NCBI RefSeq assembly: GCF_001898575.1
Contig: NZ_MKUD01000010.1
Location: 361,110-425,109, forward strand
Reading direction: 5' to 3'
From: Spirosoma sp. 48-14
GTDB lineage: Bacteria; Bacteroidota; Bacteroidia; Cytophagales; Spirosomataceae
DNA: 64,000 bases
In this document: positions 43,924 through 59,513 of the stretch, one piece after another
How the letters are laid out: each line of letters opens with the position of its first letter
How positions within the stretch are numbered: position 1 is the stretch's first letter
Position numbers and translations under genes: made by a program
The notes under the pieces: generated by a model
Seen by the model: only the letters and a program-made list of their open reading frames with translations
Told to the model about the DNA's origin: nothing
The model's database searches: none

Positions 43924-44781
43924 TTAATTTTTCTGGAGGTGAGCTAATTTGTCAGGATTTCGGAGCGAGAAAATGTGACCAATGCCCTGTTCGTCGATGT
44001 CCAGTACCATAACCGTTGTTACTAGTTGTGTGTCCTGATCGGAGAATAAAAACGCAATTGACCCATTGATCAGGGCCGTTCTGACGGTTAGTTCAGCCCC
44101 TCGCTTTTCGACCATCGATCGCAGATACCGTTCAACAACCATACGCCCAAACAACGGATTGATAGCTGTACGTACTTTACCACCCCCATCGGAATACAGC
44201 ACAACGTCCGTTTTTAGCAACTGCATGAAACTATCGATGTCGCCTGTTGTGCTGGCCTGCGAAAAAGCGTCGAGCAAGGTTTGCTGATGGTGTGGGTCAA
44301 TTGTAAACCGACGGGTTGAACTGGCTATTTTTTCTTTGGCCCGATGATAAAGCTGGCGGCAGTTCGCTTCTGTTATGTCGAACTGATCGGCCAGTTCGGT
44401 ATAGTCCAGCTCGAAACTTTCTTTTAACAGGAAAATGGCGCGTTCGAGGGGCGACAGTTTTTCCAGGAGCAATAAGAAACCATAGGAAATATCCAGTTTG
44501 GCATCCAGTACGGGGTGGGGCCAACTGATAGGTTCGGGTAGCCAGGTGCCTTTGTAAGCCTCCCGCTGGCGTTTTACGGCACTCAGGTGGTTGAGTGAAG
44601 CATTCATAACGCTTTTGGCCAGATACGCTTTCGGATCCTGAACGGAGTCTGGTGACCGGCTGAGCCAGTTCGTCAATGTATCCTGAACGATATCTTCACT
44701 GGTCATAACTTCACCCGTCATCCGGTACGCAATGGAAAGAAGCAAAGGGCGATAGGTGTTAACTGCGTCAGTCGTTGGCAT
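43924..44781 (-). CDS. ECF41-family RNA polymerase sigma factor
   Basis: Sigma region 2 (LSIAYRMTGEVMTSEDIVQDTLTNWL) and region 4 (ERAIFLLKESFELDYTELADQFDITEANCRQLYHRAKEKI) are followed by a SnoaL-like C-terminal domain. All three ECF41 signature motifs are present: WLPEP in the linker, DGGGKV in the SnoaL domain and NPDKL at the C-terminus. In this group the C-terminal domain replaces a separate anti-sigma factor. The ATG at 44781 is used; an upstream TTG at 44787 is possible. It is the first gene of the sigma, four-TM and NmrA-like oxidoreductase operon. Confidence 0.94.
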   Translation of the reverse strand: MPTTDAVNTYRPLLLSIAYRMTGEVMTSEDIVQDTLTNWLSRSPDSVQDPKAYLAKSVMNASLNHLSAVKRQREAYKGTWLPEPISWPHPVLDAKLDISYGFLLLLEKLSPLERAIFLLKESFELDYTELADQFDITEANCRQLYHRAKEKIASSTRRFTIDPHHQQTLLDAFSQASTTGDIDSFMQLLKTDVVLYSDGGGKVRTAINPLFGRMVVERYLRSMVEKRGAELTVRTALINGSIAFLFSDQDTQLVTTVMVLDIDEQGIGHIFSLRNPDKLAHLQKN

Positions 44782-44872
44782 AGGCAAAACTAATCAGTTT
44801 CTTTTTGATAGAATAACTGAAAAACCTGTAGATTTACCGATATAGCACTCATCCTCATATACATAAGCTACT

Positions 44873-47188: not shown

Positions 47189-47242
47189 CTACCCTAACGG
47201 GTAGTTTTGACCCATCTGGGCAAGAACTATCCGTTAGGGTAG
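47189..47242. promoter_or_regulatory. Double palindromic operator, copy 1
   Basis: Two 16-bp palindromes, CTACCCTAACGGGTAG (47189-47204) and CTATCCGTTAGGGTAG (47227-47242), lie 38 bp apart. Together they form a 54-bp near-symmetric dyad. A matching pair with the same spacing occurs at 57557-57610. The flanks also agree: AACTAyCCGTTrGrGTAGCA in both proximal sites. The downstream site is centred 30.5 bp before the -7 element at 47265. TACCC half-sites resemble those of NarL/LuxR-type (GerE) regulators, so the TPR-LuxR protein at 57633 is the likely binder. Confidence 0.72.
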
Positions 47243-47264
47243 CATTCGCCCCTGATGGAGCCGA

Positions 47265-47272
47265 TAGTTTTG
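47265..47272 (+). promoter_or_regulatory. -7 element of lipoprotein gene promoter
   Basis: TAGTTTTG fits the Bacteroidota -7 consensus TAnnTTTG and lies 28 nt before the ATG at 47300. No TTG is found at -33; instead the proximal operator occupies that region, as expected for an activator-dependent promoter. Confidence 0.6.
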
Positions 47273-47299
47273 ATTCAAACATTACTATTCTGCTTAACT

Positions 47300-48604
47300 A
47301 TGAAGTACACCCGATTTACTCTCGTTTTAATCTTCCTGGCGCTGGTCGGCTCCTGTTCCAAACCAGCTTCCGATTTGAATCCAACTGAAGATCCTATAAC
47401 CGTTAAAGCAACCGATGTGAATCTGGCGTCGCTGGACCAGGATGCGGTTGAGTTCTACAAAGACATTGCCGTTATGGCCGAATGGTATGCCGATCACCCA
47501 GCCGTTTTAAAGGCGGAACTGGCTAAAAACAGTGCTGAAAAGTATACCGATTCGCTCTATAATGATTTTGTGGCAGAACTGGCTTCGATGGAGTTGTATG
47601 ACGAAAAAGACAAACCAGTCTCATTTTTCGACCTGGACGAAACCACCCGTCATACGTTTTTGAAGGATTACGTTAAGCTGGAAGCCAGTTTCCTGGATAG
47701 CAAGTTCAAAATAGCGGCCAACGAGCAGGCCGATGATCACATTGAACTGGTTAACGCAGCCGTTGATAAAACGGTAAAGACATCGGCCTTTTCTGACAAC
47801 TTCGACTTTAATGCTGAAGCTGCACGAATCAAAAGCAGTAACCCCTACGAAACCGTTTCCGCAGACATTCAGAATACACTGGGTGCTGGTCCCCCGCCAA
47901 AACTGGGACTCGAAAGTCAGTCAACAACCGAACAGACTTTTCTGAAGTTTTTGGCCGACTCCCGTATTCTGGGATATAGCGTGGTGACATTCAATCCGCT
48001 ATGCTTCAACAACACACCTCAGAAATTCGTCGATAAGATGCGGAGCGGGTTGCGGAAAGGACGCGTGCTGGTATCGTTGCCAGGTGGATTTATGACCGGG
48101 TCGCCGTTAGCCTTGAATGCAGGGGGGGGGAGTATTTTAGATGTTGGTCACGTAGCGATTGTTAGTAAGGATGCTTCTGAAATTCCAGCCACCGTCAATG
48201 CGGACTATGTGCTCTCGATTGGTACAAACAATGAGGAGAATATGCACAATGAAAAACTTGGAAAAGACTGGACCAGTAAGCATGGGGTTACTTATTTGAT
48301 GCAACCCATCAAGGTAACGTATCGGTATAAATTCCCCGTGTCGTGGGAACGTTCGCAGACGGATCTGGATAATTCGAAAACCTATCAGAAGATCACCAGT
48401 GTCATGGACCGCAAATATTGCTATGCACCGGAAATGTTGTATGCAAAATGGAAAGCTCCTGATCGGTTTATCTGCAGTAGCTCGGCCTGGTGGGCCATCA
48501 AGGAAGCTCATGGTGTAGGGATTGGCGATTTCTATAAGTCGACCATTTTTCCGGCGGGTGTTTATGAGTCCAGTGATATGCGCATCGTCGGAATGAGCTT
48601 CTAA
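47300..48604 (+). CDS. Lipoprotein with permuted papain-fold (YiiX/NlpC-P60-like) peptidase domain
   Basis: 434 residues. The start at 47300 gives a lipoprotein signal with lipobox LVGSC (Cys19); the ATG at 47255 lies before the signal and inside the promoter. The middle is helical. The C-terminal half carries His284 in ILDVGHVAIVSKD and Cys392 in DRFICSSSAWWAIKEA, in the order His then Cys, as in circularly permuted YiiX-type NlpC/P60 enzymes, which act on peptide or acyl bonds. A run of nine G (48122-48130) encodes three Gly just before His284. It precedes the secreted PI-PLC-like gene and is probably co-transcribed with it. Confidence 0.75.
   Translation: MKYTRFTLVLIFLALVGSCSKPASDLNPTEDPITVKATDVNLASLDQDAVEFYKDIAVMAEWYADHPAVLKAELAKNSAEKYTDSLYNDFVAELASMELYDEKDKPVSFFDLDETTRHTFLKDYVKLEASFLDSKFKIAANEQADDHIELVNAAVDKTVKTSAFSDNFDFNAEAARIKSSNPYETVSADIQNTLGAGPPPKLGLESQSTTEQTFLKFLADSRILGYSVVTFNPLCFNNTPQKFVDKMRSGLRKGRVLVSLPGGFMTGSPLALNAGGGSILDVGHVAIVSKDASEIPATVNADYVLSIGTNNEENMHNEKLGKDWTSKHGVTYLMQPIKVTYRYKFPVSWERSQTDLDNSKTYQKITSVMDRKYCYAPEMLYAKWKAPDRFICSSSAWWAIKEAHGVGIGDFYKSTIFPAGVYESSDMRIVGMSF
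48122..48130 (+). repeat. Homopolymer tract G9 inside coding region
   Basis: Nine consecutive G encode three Gly codons 21 nt before the His284 codon. A slip by one base would shift the frame and remove both catalytic residues. Confidence 0.8.
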
Positions 48605-48701
48605 GGGCATTGGTTCGTGTTACTCAGGCTGGCTCAACGATACGGCCACCCGTTTTTAGCCCTACGAGCCAGGTCTGATTTACGGCCCCATTTTCCAGAT
48701 A

Positions 48702-48733
48702 CACCGTGAAGTAGCAATGGCTGCTTCACGGTG
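48702..48733 (+). terminator. Hairpin between lipoprotein and PI-PLC-like genes
   Basis: Arms 48702-48715 and 48720-48733 pair over 14 bp with one G-T wobble and an AATG loop. There is no T run, so it may be an attenuator or an mRNA processing stem rather than a full terminator. It lies 37 nt before the ATG at 48770. Confidence 0.55.
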
Positions 48734-48769
48734 AATCAATATCCCATATCGCCAAAACGAACAAATTCG

Positions 48770-51700
48770 ATGAAATACCTTATAACAGTCCTGTTCGTGC
48801 TAATGGGGCTGGCTCATTCGTATGGACAGTTAACGGAAGAAAATGATCCGTCACTTTTCCATTTTGGCAGCTCTACGCAAATGCTACGCGGTGAATTTCG
48901 TGGTAAAATCGATTATGAAGAGAGCTGTAATGCCACCAGTAAGGTAGTATCCATTAAGTTCAAAGACTATATCTACGTGTCCTGGACCGGAGTACTGGGA
49001 AGCCTGAATGTGGCCTGTCTGGGTAGCACGCACCAGAAGGAACTGATTGAAAACGATAAAGCCATCGATGCCAATGTCTACCATGGATTTGAGGATACGT
49101 TGGGCGGATTTGCCTACACCAATTATTCGCCCACCATGCTGGTGTACCATGATTCACTCTACATCTACTACAATGACCAGAAGGAGAACAAAATCCATTA
49201 CCTGGCGATTGGGCGGGAAGGAACGGTGAAGATAGCCCGCCGTGGCATTATTGTCGGATCGCCTGTAAATCTGGTTAATATCACGGCCATCTATCACCCA
49301 GTTTACGATGCTGTGATTTTTGTGGGGCAGAATAAAGACAATAATCGCATCCGGTTCTTTGGCTTTGGGAAAACAACGTTTAACCCCATTACCATTCACT
49401 GGAGAGATGAGATGGTTGTTCTTGATAAGACGCTGAACGAAAGCTGTGTAGGAACGGTAGGAATCTGTGATGCGCTTGATCGGCAATTTCTGATTGCCTG
49501 GACCGGTACCGACAGTGGGAATCAGCTTAATTCCGGTTTTATCGATAAAGAAACATTTGATATAAACGATAGGCATACGTATACAGATCACAGTTCGCAT
49601 ATCGACGGGCCGTTACTTTTCCGAAAGGAGAATACAAACGATAACGATGTGCATATTCTATGGCGAGGTGCCAGAGATGATACACGAGTGTGGCAGGGAG
49701 TCATTAATTTGAAGAACAAAAACAGTTTCAAACAATTTTCCTTACCTACTAACACGGCGGTTGCTAACCTGACTCCCTCCCTGATTTCGCTGAATAGCCT
49801 CATCACCTACATGATCTGGCCGACGGCTAACGGTACGGGTATATTCGATACGTATTATAACATCATGATGGCCAAGGCGCTCGACTATCCCTATGAGAGC
49901 TGGATGGGGGCCTTGTTCAAAGATGAGCATACACTCAAAAACATGGTGTTGCCCGGCAGTAATAATGCCGGTATGAACGACGCCACTCAGGTGAGTTACG
50001 GACCCAATTATTACCAGGAGCTTAGCCTGCCCAATTTTGGCCAGTGTAATGAATGCGGATTTGTGACACAGTCGACCGATGTCGCGAAGCAGCTTGCTAT
50101 GGGATACCGCTATTTCGGGCTCGATATTTCCAATTCCCGATACACAAAAATTGACATTGGCCCGTACAAGTTTTTTGATGATGGGAACCTGCTGCATAAT
50201 GCCGTAAGTCCGGCCGATCCGACGGCTTCAGCCTGCCTGGGCGAAGGTTTAAGTACGATCCTGCAATCGGCTGCCGACTTTCTGGCAACTCATCCACAGG
50301 AATTCGTAGTGATCAACGTCAAGAATCTGAATCCTGCCCTGTATACGTTTACATCGATTATCGACGATCTGACAAAAACCATCAGCCCGTTCAAGGGTAA
50401 ACTGTATCAGCCAGATAATGAGAAAACCTTTGCTGATCTAGTCAATAAGCCTATTCGTGCCTTTCGGGGTAAAATAATCCTGACAGCCTCCGATGAACTG
50501 GTGGCTACCCGGTTAGGACTGATTCGCGATGTCTTTGAAACCAGCAACAGTAGCCAGTATCGAAACATCGACCCTACCAACAGCCGCATCGATCACCTGA
50601 TCGCCAATCAGCGGAATTTCTTCGCCAACTCGGCCTATACCGGCTCATATAAACGTATGGACTGGCAGGTTAGCCTGTTAGGCAATAAGCTTTTATGCGA
50701 TTTGAGGCCGTTGCGGAATTGTCTGCTATCGCCCAAGCCCGGTCTGTGGCATCACATCTGGTACGTGACCAAATGTGGGGTTGAAATAGCTAAAATGGGA
50801 TATACAGTCTTTAAAGCGTTTGCAACGCCCGAAGACCCCAGAAATTTGGTGACGATACTGGGCTGGATGATAAGTGGTCTGGGGGAGAGCAGTATCTCGA
50901 AAGTCGACCAGGCGAATCGCAGTTTGTATCCTGCCGTAAGCGATATGATGAGAGACGGGCTCCTTCATCCCAACAACCAGGTCAACATTATTTACACCGA
51001 CAATTCGGACTACCTCTATACGGATCTGTGTATGCAACTGATTACCAACTTCAACGATTATGACGAGGTCAGTGTATATAATGGGCAGATGCAGGTTTCC
51101 GACCAGCACGTGGGGGTTAGTTGCAGTGCGCCTAATTCGGGAATTGCCTCCGTGCGGGTTCAGGGTGGCTATCCACCGTATTCCTATTACTGGCCTTCGA
51201 CGGGCGACACGACGGCCATGACCACCGGCCTATCGGAAGGGTATCACCGGGTGCGGATCACCGATGCAATGGGGCATACCGTAACCCGTAAGGTGTATGT
51301 TTCCATGATTCCCCTTGCACATAGCGGAATAGCCAGCCGGAACATGAGTAAGACCGAAGTGCAGCCATACGGGCTGTCGAATCATTACGAGGCTGACTGC
51401 GATAATCTGATTGCTAAGGTTGAAAGTGATTTCACGACCACGGCAGTGGGCGACTCCCTGACGACTTCCGTATGGATTGATCCCGTACAGGGAACGCAGT
51501 ATGTGAAACGGCATTACCAGCTAATCCCGAGCAGGAATACGACTACGGCCAGCGCCAGGGTTACCCTTTACTTTACCCAGCAGGAGTTCGATGCCTATAA
51601 CCGAACCAACCCGTCGTATAAGCTTCCCAGTCAGGCGGGTGATTCCTCCGGTATCCGTAACCTCATGATCTGGCAGAAATTGGGGCGGAGTGCCGATAAC

Positions 51701-52375
51701 AGTGGATTGCTGAACTCCTACCAGGGCAACGTCCGGGAGATCTTTCCCAAACGGTCGGAGGTCACCTGGAATGCACTCGCCGGACGCTGGGAAGTTAGCT
51801 TTTATACCGAAGGCTTTGGGGCGTATTTCCTGACATCTTATAATGGGCAGCAAATCAACGAATGGATTAAAACGGACGCTTATATGCGTACAGGAAAACC
51901 CGTTATCCAGTGGGAAGTCCTAGAGAAAGGAGTGGCCCAGTACTTTATCGATTATTCGTATGATCGGGAACATTTCGAGCAGGCCGGTGTCGTTACCAGC
52001 AAAGGCCGTGGACGCAACACCTACGAATTTTATCATCAGAATCTACCGAAACTGATCGACAGCTCAGGGCAGGGCATCGTGTATTACCGCATCATGCAAC
52101 TGGGCAATACTGGCGACATGTCGTACAGCGAGATTATGCCCGTCGATTATTCGAAAGACCGAGCCCTGTTTGTATACCCAAATCCGGTGGACAGCCAATT
52201 AACCATTCAAAGCAATGTCGATACACAGGTAACGGTATACGATAGCGGTGGCCGATCGACCAGCGCCGTTCAGCTTCAGAAAGGAAAGAATGTGATTTCG
52301 ACGAGTCTATGGGTATCCGGAATGTACATTCTCCGAACGAACGATGGCGAGTTTTATAAGATTATCAAGCTCTAA
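48770..52375 (+). CDS. Large secreted PI-PLC-like protein with SprB repeat and T9SS sorting domain
   Basis: 1201 residues. The signal peptide is KYLITVLFVLMGLAHSYG, with the start at ATG 48770. A beta-propeller-like region of about 370 residues follows (strands such as YIYVSWTGVLGSLNVA, FLIAWTGTDSGNQL, HILWRGARDDTRVW). Next is a PI-PLC X-like domain (NMVLPGSNNAGMND, RYFGLDIS, LLHNAVS, SAADFLATHPQEFVVINVKN). A SprB-type repeat (GIASVRVQGGYPPYSYYW) and a C-terminal T9SS type A domain (YPNPVDSQLTIQS...YILRTNDGEFYKIIKL) follow. The first catalytic His of the family GTHDS motif is Asn398 here, while His476 remains. Catalysis is doubtful; phospholipid binding is possible. It is exported to the surface or medium. 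Confidence 0.85.
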   Translation: MKYLITVLFVLMGLAHSYGQLTEENDPSLFHFGSSTQMLRGEFRGKIDYEESCNATSKVVSIKFKDYIYVSWTGVLGSLNVACLGSTHQKELIENDKAIDANVYHGFEDTLGGFAYTNYSPTMLVYHDSLYIYYNDQKENKIHYLAIGREGTVKIARRGIIVGSPVNLVNITAIYHPVYDAVIFVGQNKDNNRIRFFGFGKTTFNPITIHWRDEMVVLDKTLNESCVGTVGICDALDRQFLIAWTGTDSGNQLNSGFIDKETFDINDRHTYTDHSSHIDGPLLFRKENTNDNDVHILWRGARDDTRVWQGVINLKNKNSFKQFSLPTNTAVANLTPSLISLNSLITYMIWPTANGTGIFDTYYNIMMAKALDYPYESWMGALFKDEHTLKNMVLPGSNNAGMNDATQVSYGPNYYQELSLPNFGQCNECGFVTQSTDVAKQLAMGYRYFGLDISNSRYTKIDIGPYKFFDDGNLLHNAVSPADPTASACLGEGLSTILQSAADFLATHPQEFVVINVKNLNPALYTFTSIIDDLTKTISPFKGKLYQPDNEKTFADLVNKPIRAFRGKIILTASDELVATRLGLIRDVFETSNSSQYRNIDPTNSRIDHLIANQRNFFANSAYTGSYKRMDWQVSLLGNKLLCDLRPLRNCLLSPKPGLWHHIWYVTKCGVEIAKMGYTVFKAFATPEDPRNLVTILGWMISGLGESSISKVDQANRSLYPAVSDMMRDGLLHPNNQVNIIYTDNSDYLYTDLCMQLITNFNDYDEVSVYNGQMQVSDQHVGVSCSAPNSGIASVRVQGGYPPYSYYWPSTGDTTAMTTGLSEGYHRVRITDAMGHTVTRKVYVSMIPLAHSGIASRNMSKTEVQPYGLSNHYEADCDNLIAKVESDFTTTAVGDSLTTSVWIDPVQGTQYVKRHYQLIPSRNTTTASARVTLYFTQQEFDAYNRTNPSYKLPSQAGDSSGIRNLMIWQKLGRSADNSGLLNSYQGNVREIFPKRSEVTWNALAGRWEVSFYTEGFGAYFLTSYNGQQINEWIKTDAYMRTGKPVIQWEVLEKGVAQYFIDYSYDREHFEQAGVVTSKGRGRNTYEFYHQNLPKLIDSSGQGIVYYRIMQLGNTGDMSYSEIMPVDYSKDRALFVYPNPVDSQLTIQSNVDTQVTVYDSGGRSTSAVQLQKGKNVISTSLWVSGMYILRTNDGEFYKIIKL

Positions 52376-52422
52376 CCCATAGCTACCGATTCGTCGGATA
52401 CCCGACGTTGATGCCTGTATCT

Positions 52423-52472
52423 CCCGTATCTGTATAACCAGTGTTTCTGGCATCACAGATACGGGCTTTTTT
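52423..52472 (+). terminator. Intrinsic terminator after PI-PLC-like gene
   Basis: CCCGTATCTGT (52423-52433) pairs perfectly with ACAGATACGGG (52455-52465) around a 21-nt loop, followed by a T run at 52467-52472. It lies about 48 nt after the stop codon. Confidence 0.8.
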
Positions 52473-52492
52473 GTTGATCGGTACGAGTAAAA

Positions 52493-52642
52493 TCAGGCGA
52501 TGACGTAGTGCCGGCTAATCCAGGCAATCGTAAATTGGAGCGACAGCCGACTAATGCTGTAGGTAATGTCGTCTTTTATTCGAATGGCGATCAGGTGCAG
52601 AACCAGATGAATAGCGATTCGGCTATGGTTGAGTTCGTCCAT
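52493..52642 (-). CDS. Possible small protein, 49 residues
   Basis: A minus-strand frame from ATG 52642 to stop 52493 reads MDELNHSRIAIHLVLHLIAI and continues with an Ile/Leu-rich helix to WISRHYVIA. The frame stays open further upstream of the ATG. It lies between the PI-PLC-like terminator and a large palindrome. It could be a gene remnant. Evidence is only the open frame and its protein-like composition. Confidence 0.25.
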   Translation of the reverse strand: MDELNHSRIAIHLVLHLIAIRIKDDITYSISRLSLQFTIAWISRHYVIA

Positions 52643-52685
52643 GATGAATCGTAAGTGACCGACTTCTGTAGGTGAAGAAAAATGG

Positions 52686-52765
52686 ATTCAGTATTCATAG
52701 GTGTGCCGTAAGTCTACAACAGGGTTTCCCGTTGCGGACTTACGGCACACCTATGAATACTGAAT
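52686..52765. repeat. Perfect 29-bp inverted repeat (80-bp hairpin element)
   Basis: Arms 52686-52714 and 52737-52765 are exact reverse complements over 29 bp. The 22-nt loop contains a further stem (AACAGGG with CCCGTT). It lies 69 nt beyond the lipase stop. No T run follows in the plus direction. It may end lipase-operon transcripts on the minus strand, or may be a copy of a dispersed palindromic element. Confidence 0.8.
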
Positions 52766-52833
52766 TTAGACGATAACCAATCGTACAGGCTTTTGCTGAA
52801 AGAGAAATCAGTAACGAGCTCGTATCATCAGCG

Positions 52834-54012
52834 TTAGTTGGCAATCAGCAGTGTGATGGCATCGGTAACGGACTGAGGGAATTGAAACGCATCCTTGAAA
52901 TAGGCCTTGGTGTGCTGATAACCAGCTTCTTTGAAAAATGAGCCCGAATTGTCGGGGTAGGTGTTTGGAGTGCCATTGAACACGTATTCCCGGTCGGGAG
53001 CGATCCGTTTGTAGGTCTTCAGGTCAATGACAGGTTTCAGCGCATTGAAAGCCAGTTTGTCGGATGCCGGAAGCTCAAATCCACTTTTGCCACCCGGATT
53101 AAACGGTGGCGCACTGGCATAGATCGTTGGTATGGTTGCAAACATGTCCTTCTGCCAGCTACAGGGAACAATATCGTAGTTATTGATCACCGAGAAGTAA
53201 TTTTCACCAAACTTCTGGGCAGCATAGGTGGCAAACTGCGCGTCACCGGGTGTAGGTCCAGCTATTGGGTAGGCGCTTACTTTCAGGTTTGTGTAGCCCA
53301 TCTGTTCTTTCCATTCAATGCATTTGAGAGCCATAAGGGGTGACAGGGCTCCCCCAAGACTGTGGCCGGTAAAGGCTATTTCAGTAGAGGTGATGTCGCT
53401 TTGGGTGCCCAGAAACTGTAGCAGTGTTTTTCCTGTCGAAGGGTCTTTCATACCCATCAGAATGCTCAACCCCAGTTGGCTGCCGTCGCTGATTTTGCCA
53501 CTGCTGGGCATGCCCCAGTCGGCCAGTTTAAATACATTGAAATCTTCCGAGCGCCAGCCTTTGTCAGAAACGATATTCGTACCCGCAACACCGACTACGT
53601 ACATCGGTTTGCCGGTTGCTATACTCGTTCCCCGCGCCACATACATGGTGTTGTCGGTGACGAAGCTATCGACTACACTGGTATTCGACTTTTTCGGGCT
53701 GTTCGAAATGACGGGACCCCAGACCACGCGCCAGTCGGTGCCTACATACGCGCGCAAGGCTGCATTGTTTTTGAGGGCATCGTCGATTTTGAGGGTATTC
53801 TTTTGCAGGGCTGCTTCGGAAGTAGTTACCAGATTGTAATTGACGTTGGCAATCATACTTAACGCGGCAATCACCTTATGGGCATTGGTTGGCGCGTTCC
53901 CCTTCGTGAGTGGTGACGGCGTTACAGGGGTATCGTCGGTGGCAGTTTTGCAGGCAGAGAACGCGGCTATACCCAGTAGGGTAATGGCTATGAATTGGAT
54001 GTGTTTTTTCAT
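52834..54012 (-). CDS. Class 3 lipase-type lipoprotein
   Basis: 392 residues. ATG 54012 gives a lipoprotein signal with the lipobox AAFSAC (Cys21). The alpha/beta hydrolase domain has nucleophile Ser218 in FTGHSLGGALSPLMAL and the lipase_3-type blocks YVVGVAGTNIVSDKGW and PTPGDAQFATYAAQKF. A downstream Asp/His probably lies in NNYDIVPCSW and YQHTKAYF. It should hydrolyse lipids or esters at the cell surface or in the periplasm. It follows the FAD oxidase gene by 56 nt on the same strand, within the run of the lipoprotein operon. Confidence 0.85.
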   Translation of the reverse strand: MKKHIQFIAITLLGIAAFSACKTATDDTPVTPSPLTKGNAPTNAHKVIAALSMIANVNYNLVTTSEAALQKNTLKIDDALKNNAALRAYVGTDWRVVWGPVISNSPKKSNTSVVDSFVTDNTMYVARGTSIATGKPMYVVGVAGTNIVSDKGWRSEDFNVFKLADWGMPSSGKISDGSQLGLSILMGMKDPSTGKTLLQFLGTQSDITSTEIAFTGHSLGGALSPLMALKCIEWKEQMGYTNLKVSAYPIAGPTPGDAQFATYAAQKFGENYFSVINNYDIVPCSWQKDMFATIPTIYASAPPFNPGGKSGFELPASDKLAFNALKPVIDLKTYKRIAPDREYVFNGTPNTYPDNSGSFFKEAGYQHTKAYFKDAFQFPQSVTDAITLLIAN

Positions 54013-54068
54013 GAGTTGAAACAACTTGTAAATAAATACGTGGTCGTCGGTTGGCTGATGTATCGGAT

Positions 54069-55595
54069 TTACACCGGAATCGACTGGGGATAGTTGAATA
54101 GGTTTTCGGGATCGTATTTTCGTTTGATCGCCTGAAGCCTGGGCAGATTGGTGCCGTAATATGCCTGTAGATAACCTTCCTGACTAGGGTCGATGAAATT
54201 CTGGTAGCAATAGGATGATGTGTAGGCTTCCATCTGATTATGAAAGCCCGTCAGCCATTGTTCATTTTTAGCCAGCAGGGCAGCATCGTCGGCCGGCGTC
54301 CATTCCAGTTCGATACTGGATAGCATTGAGTAGCCGCGATGAACGAAAGCCATATCGGTTGGTGATCGGGCATCGATCTGTCCACCGAGTAGAAAGTACT
54401 TCCAGGTGGCCGCCTTGCTGGTACCAGGCCAGTTTTTTAAGTTCAAGATGATCTGCCGGACAGCCTCATCGGAAAGTTGCCCTTTCACAAAACGCGATCG
54501 TTCATGGGAGTACTCCGGTCTGCCCTCTTCTGTTATCAGCTGTTGCCCATCCCAGTAAGGGGCTATCTGGATCGTTTGTTCGGCCGGTTTCTGAACCGTC
54601 AGGATGGGTGCGATCAGCGAACGGAGGTCAGCCTCTGAACCAACAAAATGCCCTAGTATCGAGAGCGATAATACCGATGCCCCCGCCTGTTTCTGTGCTG
54701 TTATGCTGACTTTGATTCCCAACGTATCAGGCGCCGATAGCGTCATAGTTTGAATGGCCGCAAAGGTATCAGCAAGGCGATCCGTCCAGACAAGATTGAA
54801 CGTGGTGATGGTACCTACCGGGAAGGTGTCAAACGTAAAGGAGGTATGAATACCGAAGTTACCGCCACCGGCCCCCCGGCAGGCCCAGAACAGATCGGCA
54901 TTCTCTTTTTCATTACAGGTCAGCATGCGGCCATCGGCCAGTACGATCCGGGTTTCGCGCAGGGCATCGCAGGTAAGCCCATGCAGGCGCATGTCGAAAC
55001 CAATGCCACCGCCCAGTACTAACCCGGCGACGCCCACTTCATAGCAACGACCGTGTGGAATGGCCCTGTCCAGTGGCTTGCATTGTGTAAAAATGGTTCG
55101 ATTGCGAGCGCCACTGCCAACGGTTGCCAGCCCAGTGGTAGGTTCGTAGGTGAATGTGTTTAGCGCCGATACATTGATCATCAATCCGGTGGTCAACGAG
55201 TAGCCACCGTACGAATGCCCGCCACTGCGGGCTACGATGGGCATCGAATTAGCCTTTGCCCATTGGATACATGTCTGTACATCCGCTTCGGTTCGGCATT
55301 GCGCAATGGCCTGGGGGATGGTTGAGGCATACTGAAGCGCCCAGGGCGTTGAGAGTTCGGAAAAAGAGGCTGCTCCCGGGCGTACCAAAGCTCCCTGTAG
55401 TTTTGACGCCAGTTCATCCCAAGGGGCAATCCGGTGATCAGCGAGCTTGGTGCAACTGGTGAGCCAGTCCAGTGACGACAGCCCAACGCCAAGGCCAAGG
55501 GAGACTCTGGCACCAGCCCGTAAAAAATCCCGACGGGAAGGTTTGGCAACCACTGGCCTGGGCGCGCCTGAAACAGTATGGCTTGTCGGTTCCAT
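54069..55595 (-). CDS. FAD-linked oxidase of berberine-bridge-enzyme type, Tat exported
   Basis: 508 residues. A Tat signal (SRRDFLRAGARVSLGLGVG) is followed by a PCMH-type FAD domain: His127 in ARSGGHSYGGYS and Cys184 in PHGRCYEVGVAGLVLGGGIG are the two residues that bind FAD covalently in BBE-like oxidases. The C-terminal BBE motif is YQNFIDPSQEGYLQAYYG...LQAIKRKYDPENLFNYPQSI. Such enzymes oxidise sugars, alcohols or alkaloids with oxygen. The twin anchors suggest bicovalent FAD. It is exported and lies between three lipoprotein genes and a lipase. The substrate is unknown. Confidence 0.9.
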   Translation of the reverse strand: MEPTSHTVSGAPRPVVAKPSRRDFLRAGARVSLGLGVGLSSLDWLTSCTKLADHRIAPWDELASKLQGALVRPGAASFSELSTPWALQYASTIPQAIAQCRTEADVQTCIQWAKANSMPIVARSGGHSYGGYSLTTGLMINVSALNTFTYEPTTGLATVGSGARNRTIFTQCKPLDRAIPHGRCYEVGVAGLVLGGGIGFDMRLHGLTCDALRETRIVLADGRMLTCNEKENADLFWACRGAGGGNFGIHTSFTFDTFPVGTITTFNLVWTDRLADTFAAIQTMTLSAPDTLGIKVSITAQKQAGASVLSLSILGHFVGSEADLRSLIAPILTVQKPAEQTIQIAPYWDGQQLITEEGRPEYSHERSRFVKGQLSDEAVRQIILNLKNWPGTSKAATWKYFLLGGQIDARSPTDMAFVHRGYSMLSSIELEWTPADDAALLAKNEQWLTGFHNQMEAYTSSYCYQNFIDPSQEGYLQAYYGTNLPRLQAIKRKYDPENLFNYPQSIPV

Positions 55596-55730
55596 TGAAG
55601 ACGATAAGTTGAGTTTCTATGGAGGTATAGAGCTATCCTCTGGCCTTACTACCAACGTACAGGCTTATACGTCACGTTATAGTGTGCAGGATAGCGCTTG
55701 AAAAGAAACGGTGAGTACGGGTAACGAATG

Positions 55731-56168
55731 CTATTTCGAGTACTCAGCTATCATCGAAACAAGGGGTGTTGCACCAGGTACTACGAGGTCCGTAGTCGTT
55801 AATTTGGACCCGGTTATGTCGCCAACCGATATGGTTTTATTGATGTCGTATTCTTGTTGAATCGTGAGGCTGTTACCAGTTTGCGCAACCTTGTACGTAT
55901 ACGTATAATCAATGATGCTTAACAACGACGACACATTCTTTATAGTCATGAACTGCCGAATTTTGGCTGTTGACTGATCAACGGCCGTTATGGTGGCAGA
56001 GCCAGTCGCCGTTAAAATAGCTCCTCCTTCTTTTTGGGTTAGTTTGGCCAGGGTGTAGGTACCTGCAATCTGGCTGGTAAGATCAGGCTCAGGGCTTGAG
56101 TTCGACTTTGAGCAGGCTAGCACAGACATTGCCGCCACCAGAAACAGTAGGGGTGATTTCGTGTTCAT
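55731..56168 (-). CDS. Lipoprotein of tandem paralogue set, copy C
   Basis: 145 residues with lipobox MSVLAC followed by SKSNSSPEPD. The core IAGTYTLAKLTQKEGGAILTATGSATITAVDQSTAKI is repeated with changes in its two upstream neighbours, so the three arose by duplication. All-beta, about 120 residues after the linker, lipocalin-like in rhythm. No named family was recognised. Envelope lipoprotein, downstream of copy B by 82 nt and followed by the FAD oxidase gene. Confidence 0.8.
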   Translation of the reverse strand: MNTKSPLLFLVAAMSVLACSKSNSSPEPDLTSQIAGTYTLAKLTQKEGGAILTATGSATITAVDQSTAKIRQFMTIKNVSSLLSIIDYTYTYKVAQTGNSLTIQQEYDINKTISVGDITGSKLTTTDLVVPGATPLVSMIAEYSK

Positions 56169-56193
56169 AGTAGTAAACGTGAGCGAGTTAATG

Positions 56194-56227
56194 ACCTGGC
56201 TGGTTAGGGGTAAACTGCCAGCCAGGT
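56194..56227 (-). terminator. Hairpin between paralogue genes B and C
   Basis: ACCTGGCTGG (56194-56203) pairs perfectly with CCAGCCAGGT (56218-56227) around a 14-nt loop. It follows gene B on the minus strand. No T run; it may modulate rather than stop transcription. Confidence 0.5.
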
Positions 56228-56250
56228 ATTCTTACCATCAACAGGGGCTA

Positions 56251-56697
56251 TTATTTTCTGATGTATTCGATGGTAATATCTTTACTGTCGATAGTTCGAC
56301 TGATTATCAGTCGGTTCCCTAATAGTACACTTCCGAAAAAGTACATATTACTGGTGTACGGTTGCGGGTAGCTGAGCCGGTAAACATCATCCAACAAACT
56401 GACATTCCCTTTGTCTATATCCTGATCCAGATTTTTAGTCGTACCCGATGCTACAAATTTCAGGTCCGTACGATACTGAATCGAAACAGTTGTATCGTTG
56501 ATGGCCTTAATCAGAACCGATCCGGTTCCGGTTACTTCACCTTCCTTGTTGTTACTCAGAATTTTGTTGATGCTATAGGTACCAGCAATGTTACTGGCCC
56601 AGTGTGGTCCGGCTGGCTTTGGATCCTCGTCGGAGTCGGAACACCCAATCAGCGAAAAGCCAATCAGAACTGTTGCCAGCATAGTGAGACGTTTCAT
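56251..56697 (-). CDS. Lipoprotein of tandem paralogue set, copy B
   Basis: 148 residues from ATG 56697 with lipobox FSLIGC and an acidic +2 region [12 protein letters not shown]. The acidic stretch right after the Cys resembles the surface-export signal of Bacteroidota lipoproteins, so it may be exposed on the cell surface. The core [37 protein letters not shown] parallels copies A and C. It begins 13 nt after the stop of copy A. Function unknown. Confidence 0.8.
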
Positions 56698-56710
56698 TGA
56701 AAAGAGAAGT

Positions 56711-57163
56711 TTATTGTTTCGTGTATTCAGTATCAAGTGTAATTTCGGAAGGGGAGCCTATTTTTTCAGTCGTGCTGATTTTAGTGCCACTGATTGTGGC
56801 CCACTGAAGCCCAGTCGTCGTTTTAATGATATAGTTGGTGCCATCCTTGGCTATCTTGTTTGCTTCGTCCTGAACACTGACTATGGTTGATTCAAATTTG
56901 GTCGCTGTGTTCGTAAAGCTACGGGTCTGCGTAATCTTGGCAGTCGTATTATCGACGGCAATGATTGTAAGCGAGCCAACACCAGTAACCGCAGCGGAAC
57001 CAGATCGATTGCTGACTTTGGTCAATTTGTATATGCCGGCAACCGGGGCTGTCAGGTTTTCTTCAACAGGCGTTGGTGTAGGAGTGGGATCTGAATTTGA
57101 CTTTGAGCAGGATAAACCTGCCAATGCTACCAGCGAGGTAATATAATAGTACGTGTGCTTCAT
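56711..57163 (-). CDS. Lipoprotein of tandem paralogue set, copy A
   Basis: 150 residues from ATG 57163. The lipobox is LAGLSC, followed by [20 protein letters not shown], a Thr/Pro linker. The core [37 protein letters not shown] matches copies B and C. It is the first lipoprotein in the minus-strand run that ends with the lipase. An extra N-terminal extension in the longer frame (to 57208) is not used because ATG 57163 fits the signal peptide. Confidence 0.8.
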
Positions 57164-57230
57164 AAAAGTATATGGATTGAGAGTGAAAAGTCGAGCCGTT
57201 GAGGACATTGAAAGTTAGGTGGGTACGGAA

Positions 57231-57437
57231 TCAGTTTAGGGGATTTAGTGATTGATTCGGGATGGCCTTAGTTTGCCCAATGTTGCCTGTGTCAGGCTCA
57301 AATGAGGAATAAACCCATTTCGTATAGACCGCTCGTTTGTAGCGACCGAGCAACTGCTGGAATTCCAGAGGGCTTAACACAGGCGACATCAGCCCATTTT
57401 CATACTCACGGGTCTCCATTGCGTTATTGATATTCAT
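57231..57437 (-). CDS. Small hypothetical protein, 68 residues
   Basis: From ATG 57437 the frame reads MNINNAMETREYENGLMSPV and continues with LSPLEFQQLLGRYKRAVYTKWVYSSF. It is soluble, with a short amphipathic helix. It lies directly downstream of the operator/promoter region (57527-57610) and 67 nt before lipoprotein A, so it would be first in the operon. No family recognised. Moderate chance of being real. Confidence 0.5.
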   Translation of the reverse strand: MNINNAMETREYENGLMSPVLSPLEFQQLLGRYKRAVYTKWVYSSFEPDTGNIGQTKAIPNQSLNPLN

Positions 57438-57526
57438 TAACCATAGACGGATTACCAAACTGATTTTCGGGATTGTCAGATTAGTCAGCCTGCAAAGCCA
57501 GGCAATTGGTGGGCTGATCGACTAGC

Positions 57527-57534
57527 CAAAAGTA
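57527..57534 (-). promoter_or_regulatory. -7 element of lipoprotein/oxidase/lipase operon
   Basis: On the minus strand TACTTTTG (57534-57527) fits TAnnTTTG. The nearest operator palindrome is centred 30.5 bp upstream, exactly as at the 47265 promoter. It lies about 90 nt before ATG 57437. Confidence 0.55.
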
Positions 57535-57556
57535 TTGGGCTATTTTTGCCCAAATG

Positions 57557-57610
57557 CTACTCCAACGGGTAGTTTTTGGGCAAAAAAAAACAGACTACCC
57601 GAATGGGTAG
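57557..57610. promoter_or_regulatory. Double palindromic operator, copy 2
   Basis: CTACTCCAACGGGTAG (57557-57572) and CTACCCGAATGGGTAG (57595-57610) lie 38 bp apart, the same spacing as copy 1 at 47189-47242. The site nearest the minus-strand promoter has the shared flank AACTAyCCGTTrGrGTAGCA. The distal palindrome is also the core of the terminator of the LuxR gene, so it may have two roles. Confidence 0.7.
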
Positions 57611-57619
57611 TCTGTTTTT
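57586..57619 (-). terminator. Terminator of TPR-LuxR gene
   Basis: AAAAACAGACTACCC (57586-57600) pairs perfectly with GGGTAGTCTGTTTTT (57605-57619) around a GAAT loop. It lies 13 nt beyond the regulator's stop codon on the minus strand, with T runs on the outgoing side. Confidence 0.8.
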
Positions 57620-57632
57620 AGGGTTAAAAAGC

Positions 57633-58880
57633 CTATTTCTTAACGGTGACCAGAAATTCTTTACGGTCTTTGATGTCTAATAGCAGATAAATATTCTTTA
57701 TATGGTACTTTACCGTGTTTTCAGAAATACATAATTTATCAGCTATGGCTTTGTTAGGCATTCCCATAGCCATGTATTCCAATACCTCCTGCTGACGTTC
57801 GGAGAGTACGTTAAGATCCCCGCGTTCCAGCGAATTACGGTTCAGTACGGCCGTTCTGTTCCGGGCGAGGTAGGTTTCCAACTCCAGTTTCATGCGGAGA
57901 AACTCGCCTTCCAGACGACGTTGTTTTCGGCGGGAGGCAACCAGCCAGCTCAACAAAGCCAGAGCAATAAGCGCTAGTGCGGCCAAAAGAATGGCCAGGT
58001 AGCCTTTGCTGTTTTTTTCGTTTTGAAGCTTCTGATTAATGTAATCAGATACAATGGATTCCTTCTGATTATGCAACGAGGAAATATTTTGCTCCCGGGC
58101 AAAAATAACATTCAGACTGTCTAGTTTTTTCTGTGTCTGAACGAGGTGGGGCAGATCATTTTTAGCCTTGTAAATTTCCCGAAGTTCTTCATACGCGTAC
58201 AGATGATATTTGATGATTTTGCAGGAGTCGGCATAAAAAGTCGATTTTTTGAGTGCACCGGCCAATAAATCAGGGCGATTCATGGCATTGTACAACTGCA
58301 TTTTCTTAACATAGATCATCGGTAGGTGGCATGGGGCCGACGCCTGCATCCATACGATGGCTCTGTCGTAAGTAGCTTCGGCCTGTTCATACTGTTTTTT
58401 GACAAACAGCAGATAGCCCTGCTGCATGATCAGCTTCGATTTATTTTCCTGATTTATATGCTTGAATCCCGACTTTTCCAGGGACGCCATCAACCGGTCT
58501 GCCTTTTGATAGTCGTGGGTATCGAAGAGAATAAACGCTTCTTCCGACTGGATATTAGCTGTGTACAGGGCCTTATTTGGCGTCTGCTCAGCGAATGTCT
58601 GAGCCGTTTTCAGAAATTTTAGTGCCGACTGGTAATCGTAAACACGTTTATAGGTATACGAAAGCAGGATAGAGGCCTGGTATTTCTCATCGGCGCTGAA
58701 TTTGTCGTCCTGTAAAATAGGTAGCAGTAACGCCTGCGATTCGTTGTATTTAAGCTCATTATTCAACAAATATACCTTTTGCTCCAACTGTTGATACGAG
58801 CTTTTTTGACTATATCCAACTGTCGATAGCAACAGTATACAGCCTAGAAAAATAACGTGAGTAGTAAAGGATTTAGTCAT
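57633..58880 (-). CDS. Membrane-tethered TPR-LuxR family transcriptional regulator
   Basis: 416 residues. The start at 58880 gives a signal/anchor (HVIFLGCILLLSTVGYSQ). The region to about 250 is a tandem of TPR-like helix pairs (YQASILLSYTYKRVYDYQSALKFLKTAQ and similar). A coiled coil, one transmembrane helix (GYLAILLAALALIALALLSWLVA), a short coiled stretch and a GerE helix-turn-helix (LSERQQEVLEYMAMGMPNKAIADKLCISENTVKYHIKNI) follow. It fits a one-component sensor with periplasmic TPR and cytoplasmic DNA-binding domain. The operators at 47189 and 57557 flank the envelope gene cluster and are its probable targets. Confidence 0.88.
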   Translation of the reverse strand: MTKSFTTHVIFLGCILLLSTVGYSQKSSYQQLEQKVYLLNNELKYNESQALLLPILQDDKFSADEKYQASILLSYTYKRVYDYQSALKFLKTAQTFAEQTPNKALYTANIQSEEAFILFDTHDYQKADRLMASLEKSGFKHINQENKSKLIMQQGYLLFVKKQYEQAEATYDRAIVWMQASAPCHLPMIYVKKMQLYNAMNRPDLLAGALKKSTFYADSCKIIKYHLYAYEELREIYKAKNDLPHLVQTQKKLDSLNVIFAREQNISSLHNQKESIVSDYINQKLQNEKNSKGYLAILLAALALIALALLSWLVASRRKQRRLEGEFLRMKLELETYLARNRTAVLNRNSLERGDLNVLSERQQEVLEYMAMGMPNKAIADKLCISENTVKYHIKNIYLLLDIKDRKEFLVTVKK

Positions 58881-58921
58881 ATACACGCTAGTTATCAGAT
58901 CAGAAAAGAATCTCATATAAG

Positions 58922-58929
58922 CAAAACTA
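58922..58929 (-). promoter_or_regulatory. -7 element upstream of the TPR-LuxR gene
   Basis: TAGTTTTG on the minus strand (58929-58922) fits TAnnTTTG and lies 41 nt before the ATG at 58880. A longer reading frame starting at 58949 would begin upstream of it, which supports 58880 as the start. Confidence 0.5.
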
Positions 58930-59513
58930 GAAAGCATTTTCAATGTCATACCCTTTCTTTATTATTTGGTGGATTAGGGGATTAGGTATCATTCTGTTTA
59001 ATTATACTAATACAAAACATGTATTTACTAATATTTATGTTTATTTTGGGTCGTAATGTAATATATTTAAGTGTGTATTTTTTGTTTATAGTAACATTTT
59101 GATTCATTGCTTAAATTGTTCTTTTTGGATTTTTTATTGTACTAATTTAATGTGATAGAGAGTGGCAGAGACGGTTCTATTGAAGTCTTTCTTCTTAATT
59201 TTCAGTCGTTTACTGACTAGTTAGTAAGGTGGTCGTCGTATGGGTAGGATAGTAGGTAATCAAGTCGATAAATGAGTAAAAATAGTCTAATAGAGACTGG
59301 TTGGGACACCGAAGAGGGTATGGGTAGGATGAAGTCTGATTAATAAAAAAATGTTAAGGCGATTTCTAAGAATGCTTAAGTGCAGCCACCAACAGTGCCT
59401 TTGAAACAGAGTTGCTAAATCAATACGCAGATAAGGTAAAGAATCGGGTAACGTGTATTTATGATACGTGAGAAGCATACTATACTCGTCTTACATTTAT
59501 CTCCATCTCATTT
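58930..59513. other. AT-rich intergenic region with repeats
   Basis: About 580 bases between the regulator and the Gfo/Idh gene. A 13-bp direct repeat GTATGGGTAGGAT occurs at 59238-59250 and 59318-59330, 80 bp apart. A near-palindrome TTACTGACTAGTTAGTAA (16 of 18 symmetric) lies at 59210-59227. No gene was recognised. These may be operator sites of the Gfo/Idh gene. Confidence 0.5.

Follow-up and report, generated by a model that had tools for sequence, protein, structure and literature searches.

Inspection of a 64,000-nt stretch of the Spirosoma sp. 48-14 genome (positions 361,110 to 425,109 of contig NZ_MKUD01000010.1; hereafter the window) identified two promoters, about 10 kb apart, that carry the same pair of CTACCC-N4-GGGTAG palindromes (operators) upstream of a -7 box. 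Promoter 1 reads rightwards and promoter 2 leftwards, and the two operons converge. Promoter 2 is immediately preceded, on its own strand, by a gene (luxR; 57633-58880, minus strand) coding for a LuxR-type regulator with tetratricopeptide repeats (TPR), named here TPR-LuxR. This protein is probably a membrane-anchored class II activator that acts from about -42 on the two operons, which appear to encode secreted proteins. A first-pass annotation of the window had proposed that the neighbouring LuxR protein acts on these sites in this way, and the linkage between gene and site, the fixed spacing and the conservation of the operator arms all argue for it. The operator, the exact promoter position, the probable regulator and a small set of targets were all derived by comparative sequence analysis, and lend themselves directly to testing. 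To our knowledge, there are few worked examples of activator-dependent transcription in Bacteroidota. If the proposal is correct, the operator and its spacing would predict GerE regulons in Spirosoma relatives and in Flammeovirga.

Two promoters with a common double-operator layout

The palindromes of copy 1 lie on the plus strand at 47189-47204 (distal operator; CTACCCTAACGGGTAG) and 47227-47242 (proximal operator; CTATCCGTTAGGGTAG), their starts being 38 bp apart; a 22-bp spacer (47243-47264) separates the proximal palindrome from the -7 box, TAGTTTTG, at 47265-47272. On the minus strand, the palindromes of copy 2 lie at 57610-57595 (distal; CTACCCATTCGGGTAG) and 57572-57557 (proximal; CTACCCGTTGGAGTAG), again 38 bp apart, and the -7 box, TACTTTTG, follows 22 bp after the proximal palindrome, at 57534-57527. 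Both promoters have the same 84-bp order (palindrome, 38 bp start to start, palindrome, 22 bp, -7 box), which bears out the identical layout, exact spacings and coordinates given in the first-pass annotation. The 20-mer AACTAyCCGTTrGrGTAGCA, which had been said to be common to the two proximal sites, was indeed found as an exact match at two places in the genome, namely these two promoters; when up to three mismatches were allowed, six places were found, three of them in this region.

Both promoters contain the -7 box of Bacteroidota sigma-A promoters, TAnnTTTG, which is placed at -12 to -5 in Flavobacterium psychrophilum (excerpt of PMC9723704). If TAnnTTTG occupies these positions here, the proximal operator would extend from -50 to -35, with its centre at -42.5. 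Class II activators are centred near -41.5 at a fixed distance from the core promoter, and the proximal sites agree with this in both position and spacing. The proposal that they are centred near -42, at a class II activator position, holds up, the spacing to the core element being fixed in relatives as well.

The operators are rare in the 8.7-Mb genome of Spirosoma sp. 48-14. CTAYYC-N4-GGGTAG was found at six distinct places (eight strand matches), four of which are the window operators. An operator followed at 22 bp by TAnnTTTG, with at most one mismatch, occurred exclusively at the two window promoters, and at two mismatches there were four further places in the genome. The genome scan suggested as a check on the annotation revealed no surplus copies of the motif, the operator-22-(-7) unit being unique to both promoters at up to one mismatch. 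A scan for sigma-70 TTGACA/TATAAT promoters was uninformative (13 found versus 14.7 expected).

Operator spacing and conservation in other genomes

The distance between operator and -7 box was examined in 222 genomes of the family by searching for a strict palindrome followed, at any distance of 8-38 bp, by TAnnTTTG. There were 17 matches, 13 with a gap of 22 bp, three of 23 bp and one of 14 bp, compared with two for a reversed-pattern control; that is, 16 of the 17 fell at 22-23 bp out of 31 permitted gaps. A looser operator with gaps of 21-23 bp gave 29 matches in 19 of the 222 genomes, versus five in the control. A sample of the order (390 genomes) contributed 23 matches outside the family, 19 of them at 22 bp, two at 30 bp, one at 9 bp and one at 18 bp; the reversed control gave two matches over all 390 genomes. 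The 19 matches at 22 bp all came from one genus (g66), Flammeovirga, and several were identical to named Flammeovirga records.

A set of 48 non-redundant sites was assembled from 63 of 68 distinct 22-bp sites by removing near-duplicates. L102, L103, L107, L153 and L166, which are likely chance matches or not from Bacteroidota, were left out, L143 was retained although not from Bacteroidota, and the set excludes 23-bp sites and the sites of the Spirosoma genomes G002, G022, G024, G031 and G035. Conservation extended outside the searched pattern: each of the four positions before CTACCC was an A in 77-85% of the sites, while an A right after GGGTAG was found in none of the 48. A TTG within the first eight bases of the spacer was present at two of the 48 sites. 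The first-pass annotation had stated that neither window promoter has a -33 TTG. This is right for copy 1, but copy 2 has a TTTG at 57554-57551 (about -32 to -29), 2 bp into the spacer, that is not conserved in Spirosoma panaciterrae.

The second operator was more variable. An exact CTACCC was present 32-39 bp upstream at eight of the 48 sites, and 10-13 bp upstream at five. In relatives, the second operator lay at 37-39 bp, also at 32, 34 or 56 bp, or was absent; pair spacings of 37, 38 and 56 bp were recorded for promoter 1 and for the sites adjoining TPR-LuxR genes within the genus, and only a single site was found in G002 and G022. Of the two spacings originally described as exact, that of 22 bp is near-general in relatives, recurring in two families, while that of 38 bp is not. 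The comparison points to a single operator with a gap of 22-23 bp to the -7 box as the real invariant, with the second operator as a variable extra. A distance of 37-38 bp corresponds to about 3.5-3.6 helical turns of DNA; two dimers so spaced would lie on different faces of the DNA, which makes a direct side-by-side contact unlikely. By analogy with Bacillus subtilis ComA (excerpt of PMC4797271), it might be guessed that the distal dimer contacts the alpha subunit of the polymerase.

Thirty-six Spirosoma genomes were compared, including that of S. panaciterrae (G015). Full-length TPR-LuxR homologues were found at ten loci (that of the window included) in eight of the 36 genomes, and those beside sites were 46-92% identical. 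A relative with the same sites beside the same gene had been named as support for the proposal, and nine of the ten loci keep a site: seven match the looser pattern exactly, two are degenerate, and one locus has none. The seven exact sites (G000, G015, G035 contig 39, G002, G022, G024 contig 176 and G031) lie 22-23 bp from TAnnTTTG and within about 0.5 kb of luxR. On contig 71 of G024 the site lies 22 bp from TACGTTTA, and on contig 4 of G035 the distal palindrome is whole and the left half only of the proximal one is seen, by eye, 22 bp from the box. By genome, a site was present in seven of the eight with luxR versus two of the 28 without it (Fisher p 3e-5). In G031, the operators, the box and a small open reading frame (ORF) face luxR rather than follow it, an arrangement indicating that the unit is tied to the promoter of the small ORF rather than just to the terminator of luxR. 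G002 has a further site on the other side of a metallopeptidase gene, facing the first, which reproduces the convergent plan of the window.

Operator plus box, with at most one mismatch, was detected at 19 places across the 14 genomes scanned, versus two for the reversed control. The whole double-operator pattern, with up to three mismatches, was found in five of the 36 genomes: as two pairs with zero mismatches in the own genome and again in S. panaciterrae, as one pair with two mismatches in G001, and as single three-mismatch matches, apparently due to chance, in G005 and G022. With the reversed pattern, G000, G015 and G021 yielded one place apiece. Taking both copies together, 47 of 48 bases of the operator arms were identical to those of S. 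panaciterrae, versus 71 of 108 other bases (p 4e-6).

Genome G001 lacks both the full-length regulator and an island of about 12 kb that corresponds to positions 47245-59397 of the window. The genes flanking the island are adjacent in G001, where the alignment breaks off just past the proximal operator and continues from about 59398. A decayed operator pair remains at the junction: the distal palindrome, which is also kept in S. panaciterrae, has no mismatches, the proximal one has two, and the -7 box is gone. The simpler reading would be that G001 lost the island and the pair then decayed; the alternative is an insertion at that point in the other genomes.

The candidate regulator and competing explanations

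The product of 57633-58880 has a C-terminal HTH (helix-turn-helix) domain of the GerE/NarL type (Pfam GerE, E 1.4e-16; 60.3 bits versus a curated cut-off of 23.5) whose nearest solved homologue is NarL (1je8, E 1.2e-10). Pfam found no receiver domain, a TPR region being in its place, and the NCBIfam NarL model scored 42.9 bits, under its cut-off of 250. An AlphaFold (AF2) model, made from an alignment of five sequences (mean predicted local distance difference test score, pLDDT, 80.6; predicted template modelling score, pTM, 0.54), comprises a helical TPR-like superhelix (residues 25-240), a long helix that includes a hydrophobic stretch (243-341) and the HTH (361-414). A hydrophobic stretch at the N-terminus and a single internal one suggest a signal peptide and a membrane helix, which would place the TPR domain outside the cytoplasm.

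A GerE search of the own genome gave 32 matches, 31 of them over the cut-off. Those examined were 31 of the 32, namely the window's own match and 30 stretches of up to 2.5 kb, the omitted one being below the cut-off; the last ten or so resemble region 4 of sigma factors, not LuxR proteins. Among the 31, only the window protein has the VK[YF]H helix (as VKYH), and an operator with at most one mismatch was found in none of the other 30 stretches. Elsewhere, a 209-aa NarL-type regulator of S. profusum has the helix VKYHIKNIY and a site 74 bp after its gene, and in Flammeovirga the site lies upstream of the gene of a regulator with the helix VKFHIKNIY.

The 22-23-bp pattern was also looked for in 84,980 species, in a scan run without a reversed control, and was found on 67 contigs, 57 of them Bacteroidota by title. 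A GerE gene lay within 400 bp of the site on 19 of these contigs (17 of them Bacteroidota), and anywhere in the stretch (at most 8 kb long) on 37 of the 67 versus none of 19 control stretches, which were mostly shorter (about 3 kb in 15 of the 19). The GerE profile used for the contigs was self-built from matches to the window HTH, not Pfam's, and the rows of the neighbour-gene table include some places twice under different locus ids. Together with the lack of a reversed control and the shortness of the control stretches, several results weigh against the proposed pairing of regulator and operator. On 30 of the 67 contigs the stretch lacks a GerE gene, and two of the 19 contigs with one nearby (L143 and L166) are not from Bacteroidota. 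Several GerE genes beside matches in other Bacteroidota (L109, L115, L138 and L157) have different helices. In G023 the regulator is kept, its helix included, yet no site was found nearby or, at up to one mismatch, genome-wide. For copy 2 alone the identity of the arms to S. panaciterrae (23 of 24 bases versus 43 of 54 others) was not significant (p 0.09). Finally, a sample of the class (395 genomes, 16 of them of the own order) gave two matches, at gaps of 12 and 27 bp, versus two in the control. With this sample at control level and nothing at 22-23 bp, a phylum-wide strict code is unsupported; and since some of the GerE genes that adjoin sites in other orders have other helices, any helix-operator recognition code may be limited to Cytophagales. 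The scattered matches in Bacteroides, Sphingobacterium, Winogradskyella and Saprospiraceae may be genuine. In the Bacteroides/Bacteroidales records L108, L120, L135, L136, L141, L144-L146, L149, L150 and L161, CTACCC-N4-GGGTAG lies 22 bp from TACCTTTG or TAACTTTG; ten of these 11 stretches have a GerE gene, and L146 and L149 hold two sites each.

Known systems show both likenesses and differences. The TACCC half-site is shared with Escherichia coli NarL, which reads TACCC-type heptamers (engineered site TACCCCTAAAGGGGTA; excerpt of PMC4549865), in keeping with the annotation's remark that such half-sites fit the NarL/LuxR family. NarL also uses class II positions, its activating sites being at -38 to -47 for yeaR and at -40 to -49 for napF (same excerpt). 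However, its heptamers are arranged as 7-2-7, TACCC-N6-GGGTA, so that the window sites, TACCC-N4-GGGTA, are two bases tighter; NarL is a phosphorylated receiver protein, whereas the window regulator would be a one-component TPR protein, probably membrane-anchored, that works at a Bacteroidota sigma-A promoter. The ComA boxes of B. subtilis, as described in part of PMC4797271, are likewise hexamer-N4-hexamer inverted repeats with two sites per promoter, the distal one class I and the proximal one class II. Both own promoters have two sites, but an exact upstream CTACCC 32-39 bp away is present at only the eight of 48 sites mentioned above. By contrast, according to the same part of that paper, ComA has TTGCGG as its half-site and a direct repeat as its proximal site, and performs poorly from an inverted repeat placed at the class II position, contrary to the arrangement proposed here. 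With other Bacteroidota sigma-A promoters the two promoters share the -7 box at -12 to -5 (PMC9723704, in part); they differ in that an operator adjoins the position of the -33 TTTG reported in Bacteroides fragilis (excerpt of PMC7366714) and probably substitutes for it. The predicted superhelix resembles the TPR domains of PlcR, Rap and kinesin light chain, among others, but the resemblance is a generic one of 10-20% identity, and the window TPR domain would be outside the cytoplasm. The promoters would appear to be NarL/LuxR class II promoters, a class already known, that differ in their operator spacing and in having a TPR protein as the regulator. The published literature searched contained no description of a CTACCC-N4-GGGTAG operator, and a search for GGGTAG with LuxR gave nothing.

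In the proposed circuit, TPR-LuxR would span the inner membrane, its TPR domain exposed outside the cytoplasm and its NarL-like HTH facing into it. Once activated, HTH dimers would bind CTACCC-N4-GGGTAG centred near -42, replace the -33 element and recruit sigma-A RNA polymerase in the class II manner to the two convergent promoters, from which genes for secreted proteins would be transcribed inwards from each end of the island. A second dimer bound about 38 bp upstream (near -80) might strengthen or tune the response.

A different GerE regulator, for example a NarL-type response regulator, could bind the sites, the TPR-LuxR gene being merely a neighbour. The S. profusum and Flammeovirga regulators adjoining the same site are of this type (about 206-209 aa), and the own genome has 31 GerE matches over the cut-off. 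Still, the 30 other matches examined have neither VK[YF]H nor an operator in their stretches, and the presence of TPR-LuxR predicts that of the site across the genus, which leaves this explanation rather improbable. Repression, with the protein blocking the -33 region until a signal releases it, seems very unlikely too. The proximal site ends beside that region, copy 2 has its TTTG there, and NarL represses frdA from a site near the start (excerpt of PMC4549865); but there is no conserved -33 TTG to block (two of 48 sites), a fixed 22-23 bp fits polymerase contact better than simple blocking, and the NarL sites of napF and yeaR at comparable positions activate, according to the same excerpt.

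Alternatively, the palindromes might work at the RNA level, as terminator or leader hairpins, and not bind protein as DNA. In copy 2, the distal one lies within a likely intrinsic terminator of luxR (57582-57619, minus strand; 15-bp stem, ATTC loop and T run) that folds strongly (-22.7 kcal/mol, z -7.7) and was not listed by a generic terminator scan (nine found versus 10.7 expected). A hairpin with a T run follows luxR, by eye, at six of the ten TPR-LuxR loci, and two proximal stretches fold better than shuffled sequences (z -3.6 and -2.3). It is arm sequence, however, and not pairing alone, that is kept, and the distance to the -7 box is fixed; the copy-1 sites lie upstream of their -7 box, the distal stretch of copy 1 shows no folding advantage over shuffles (z -0.4), and in the proximal one the two arms are not paired with each other in the low-energy fold. 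A hairpin role in place of protein binding is highly improbable in consequence, while the distal palindrome of copy 2 likely doubles as the luxR terminator. That a recent duplication, or chance, explains the common layout can be practically discounted: two similar 84-bp blocks do lie within 10.4 kb, but the own copies have only 25 of 54 bases in common once the arms and the -7 box are set aside, the longest alignment joining their 700-bp surroundings is at most 26 bases, and the layout recurs at the same distance in other genera. With spacers and flanks differing, promoter duplication was rejected.

Activation by TPR-LuxR could be part of something wider, although this extension is speculative and rather unlikely as a whole: a portable Cytophagales cassette made up of a membrane TPR sensor-regulator, an operator in its own terminator and an exchangeable operon of secreted cargo. 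The sensor might detect a ligand outside the cytoplasm, binding at the terminator might couple the 3' end of luxR to target activation, and a family-wide code might link VK[YF]H to AAAA-CTACCC-N4-GGGTAG 22 bp from TAnnTTTG. If such a code existed, the regulons of uncharacterised GerE proteins could be read from sequence.

The convergent operons and their surroundings

The first presumed target downstream of promoter 1 (47300-48604, plus strand) looks by its sequence like a lipoprotein-like secreted protein and had no Pfam or NCBIfam match at E 0.001. The second (48773-52375, plus strand; 1200 aa) has a type IX secretion C-terminal sorting domain (PF18962, E 6e-10; TIGR04183, E 7e-10); a phospholipase-like reading of it, made by looking at the sequence, was supported by no search. 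Operon 2, on the minus strand, begins with a 68-aa ORF (57231-57437) with a YKRAVY motif that is kept in relatives; it had no NCBIfam match, and its best Pfam match was below the cut-off (E 0.019). Counterparts of this ORF were seen in G015, G035 (contig 39), G002, G022 and G031, each adjoining an operator. Next come three small lipoprotein-like proteins without a family match (56711-57163, 56251-56697 and 55731-56168) that are related, cross-matching each other's S. panaciterrae counterparts in tblastn searches. They are followed by a flavin adenine dinucleotide (FAD)/berberine-bridge-type oxidoreductase (54069-55595; PF01565, PF08031) and, as the last gene, a class 3 lipase (52834-54009; PF01764, E 2e-14). 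In relatives, the presumed targets comprise, among others, proteins with a type IX secretion tail, metallopeptidases, and proteins with collagen or Ig repeats.

Upstream of luxR there are two ATCCTACCCATAC direct repeats 80 bp apart, at 59327 and 59247 (minus strand), at distances of 447 and 367 bp from the luxR start (58880). Autoregulation through these two places, read as CTACCCATAC half-sites, was considered and given little weight, since they were not found in the same region of S. panaciterrae. Near the island lies a sigma-70 family gene (43924-44787, minus strand) whose product has, besides regions 2 and 4, a long C-terminal extension; a link to the operators was neither found nor sought. 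In Persicitalea (L094), a hairpin like that of the luxR terminator is present after an unrelated gene of 1322 aa. In G002 and G023, luxR is closely preceded by a response-regulator-like gene of 524-546 aa (L048, 7700-9274; L050, 7817-9457), which appears to resemble PorX.

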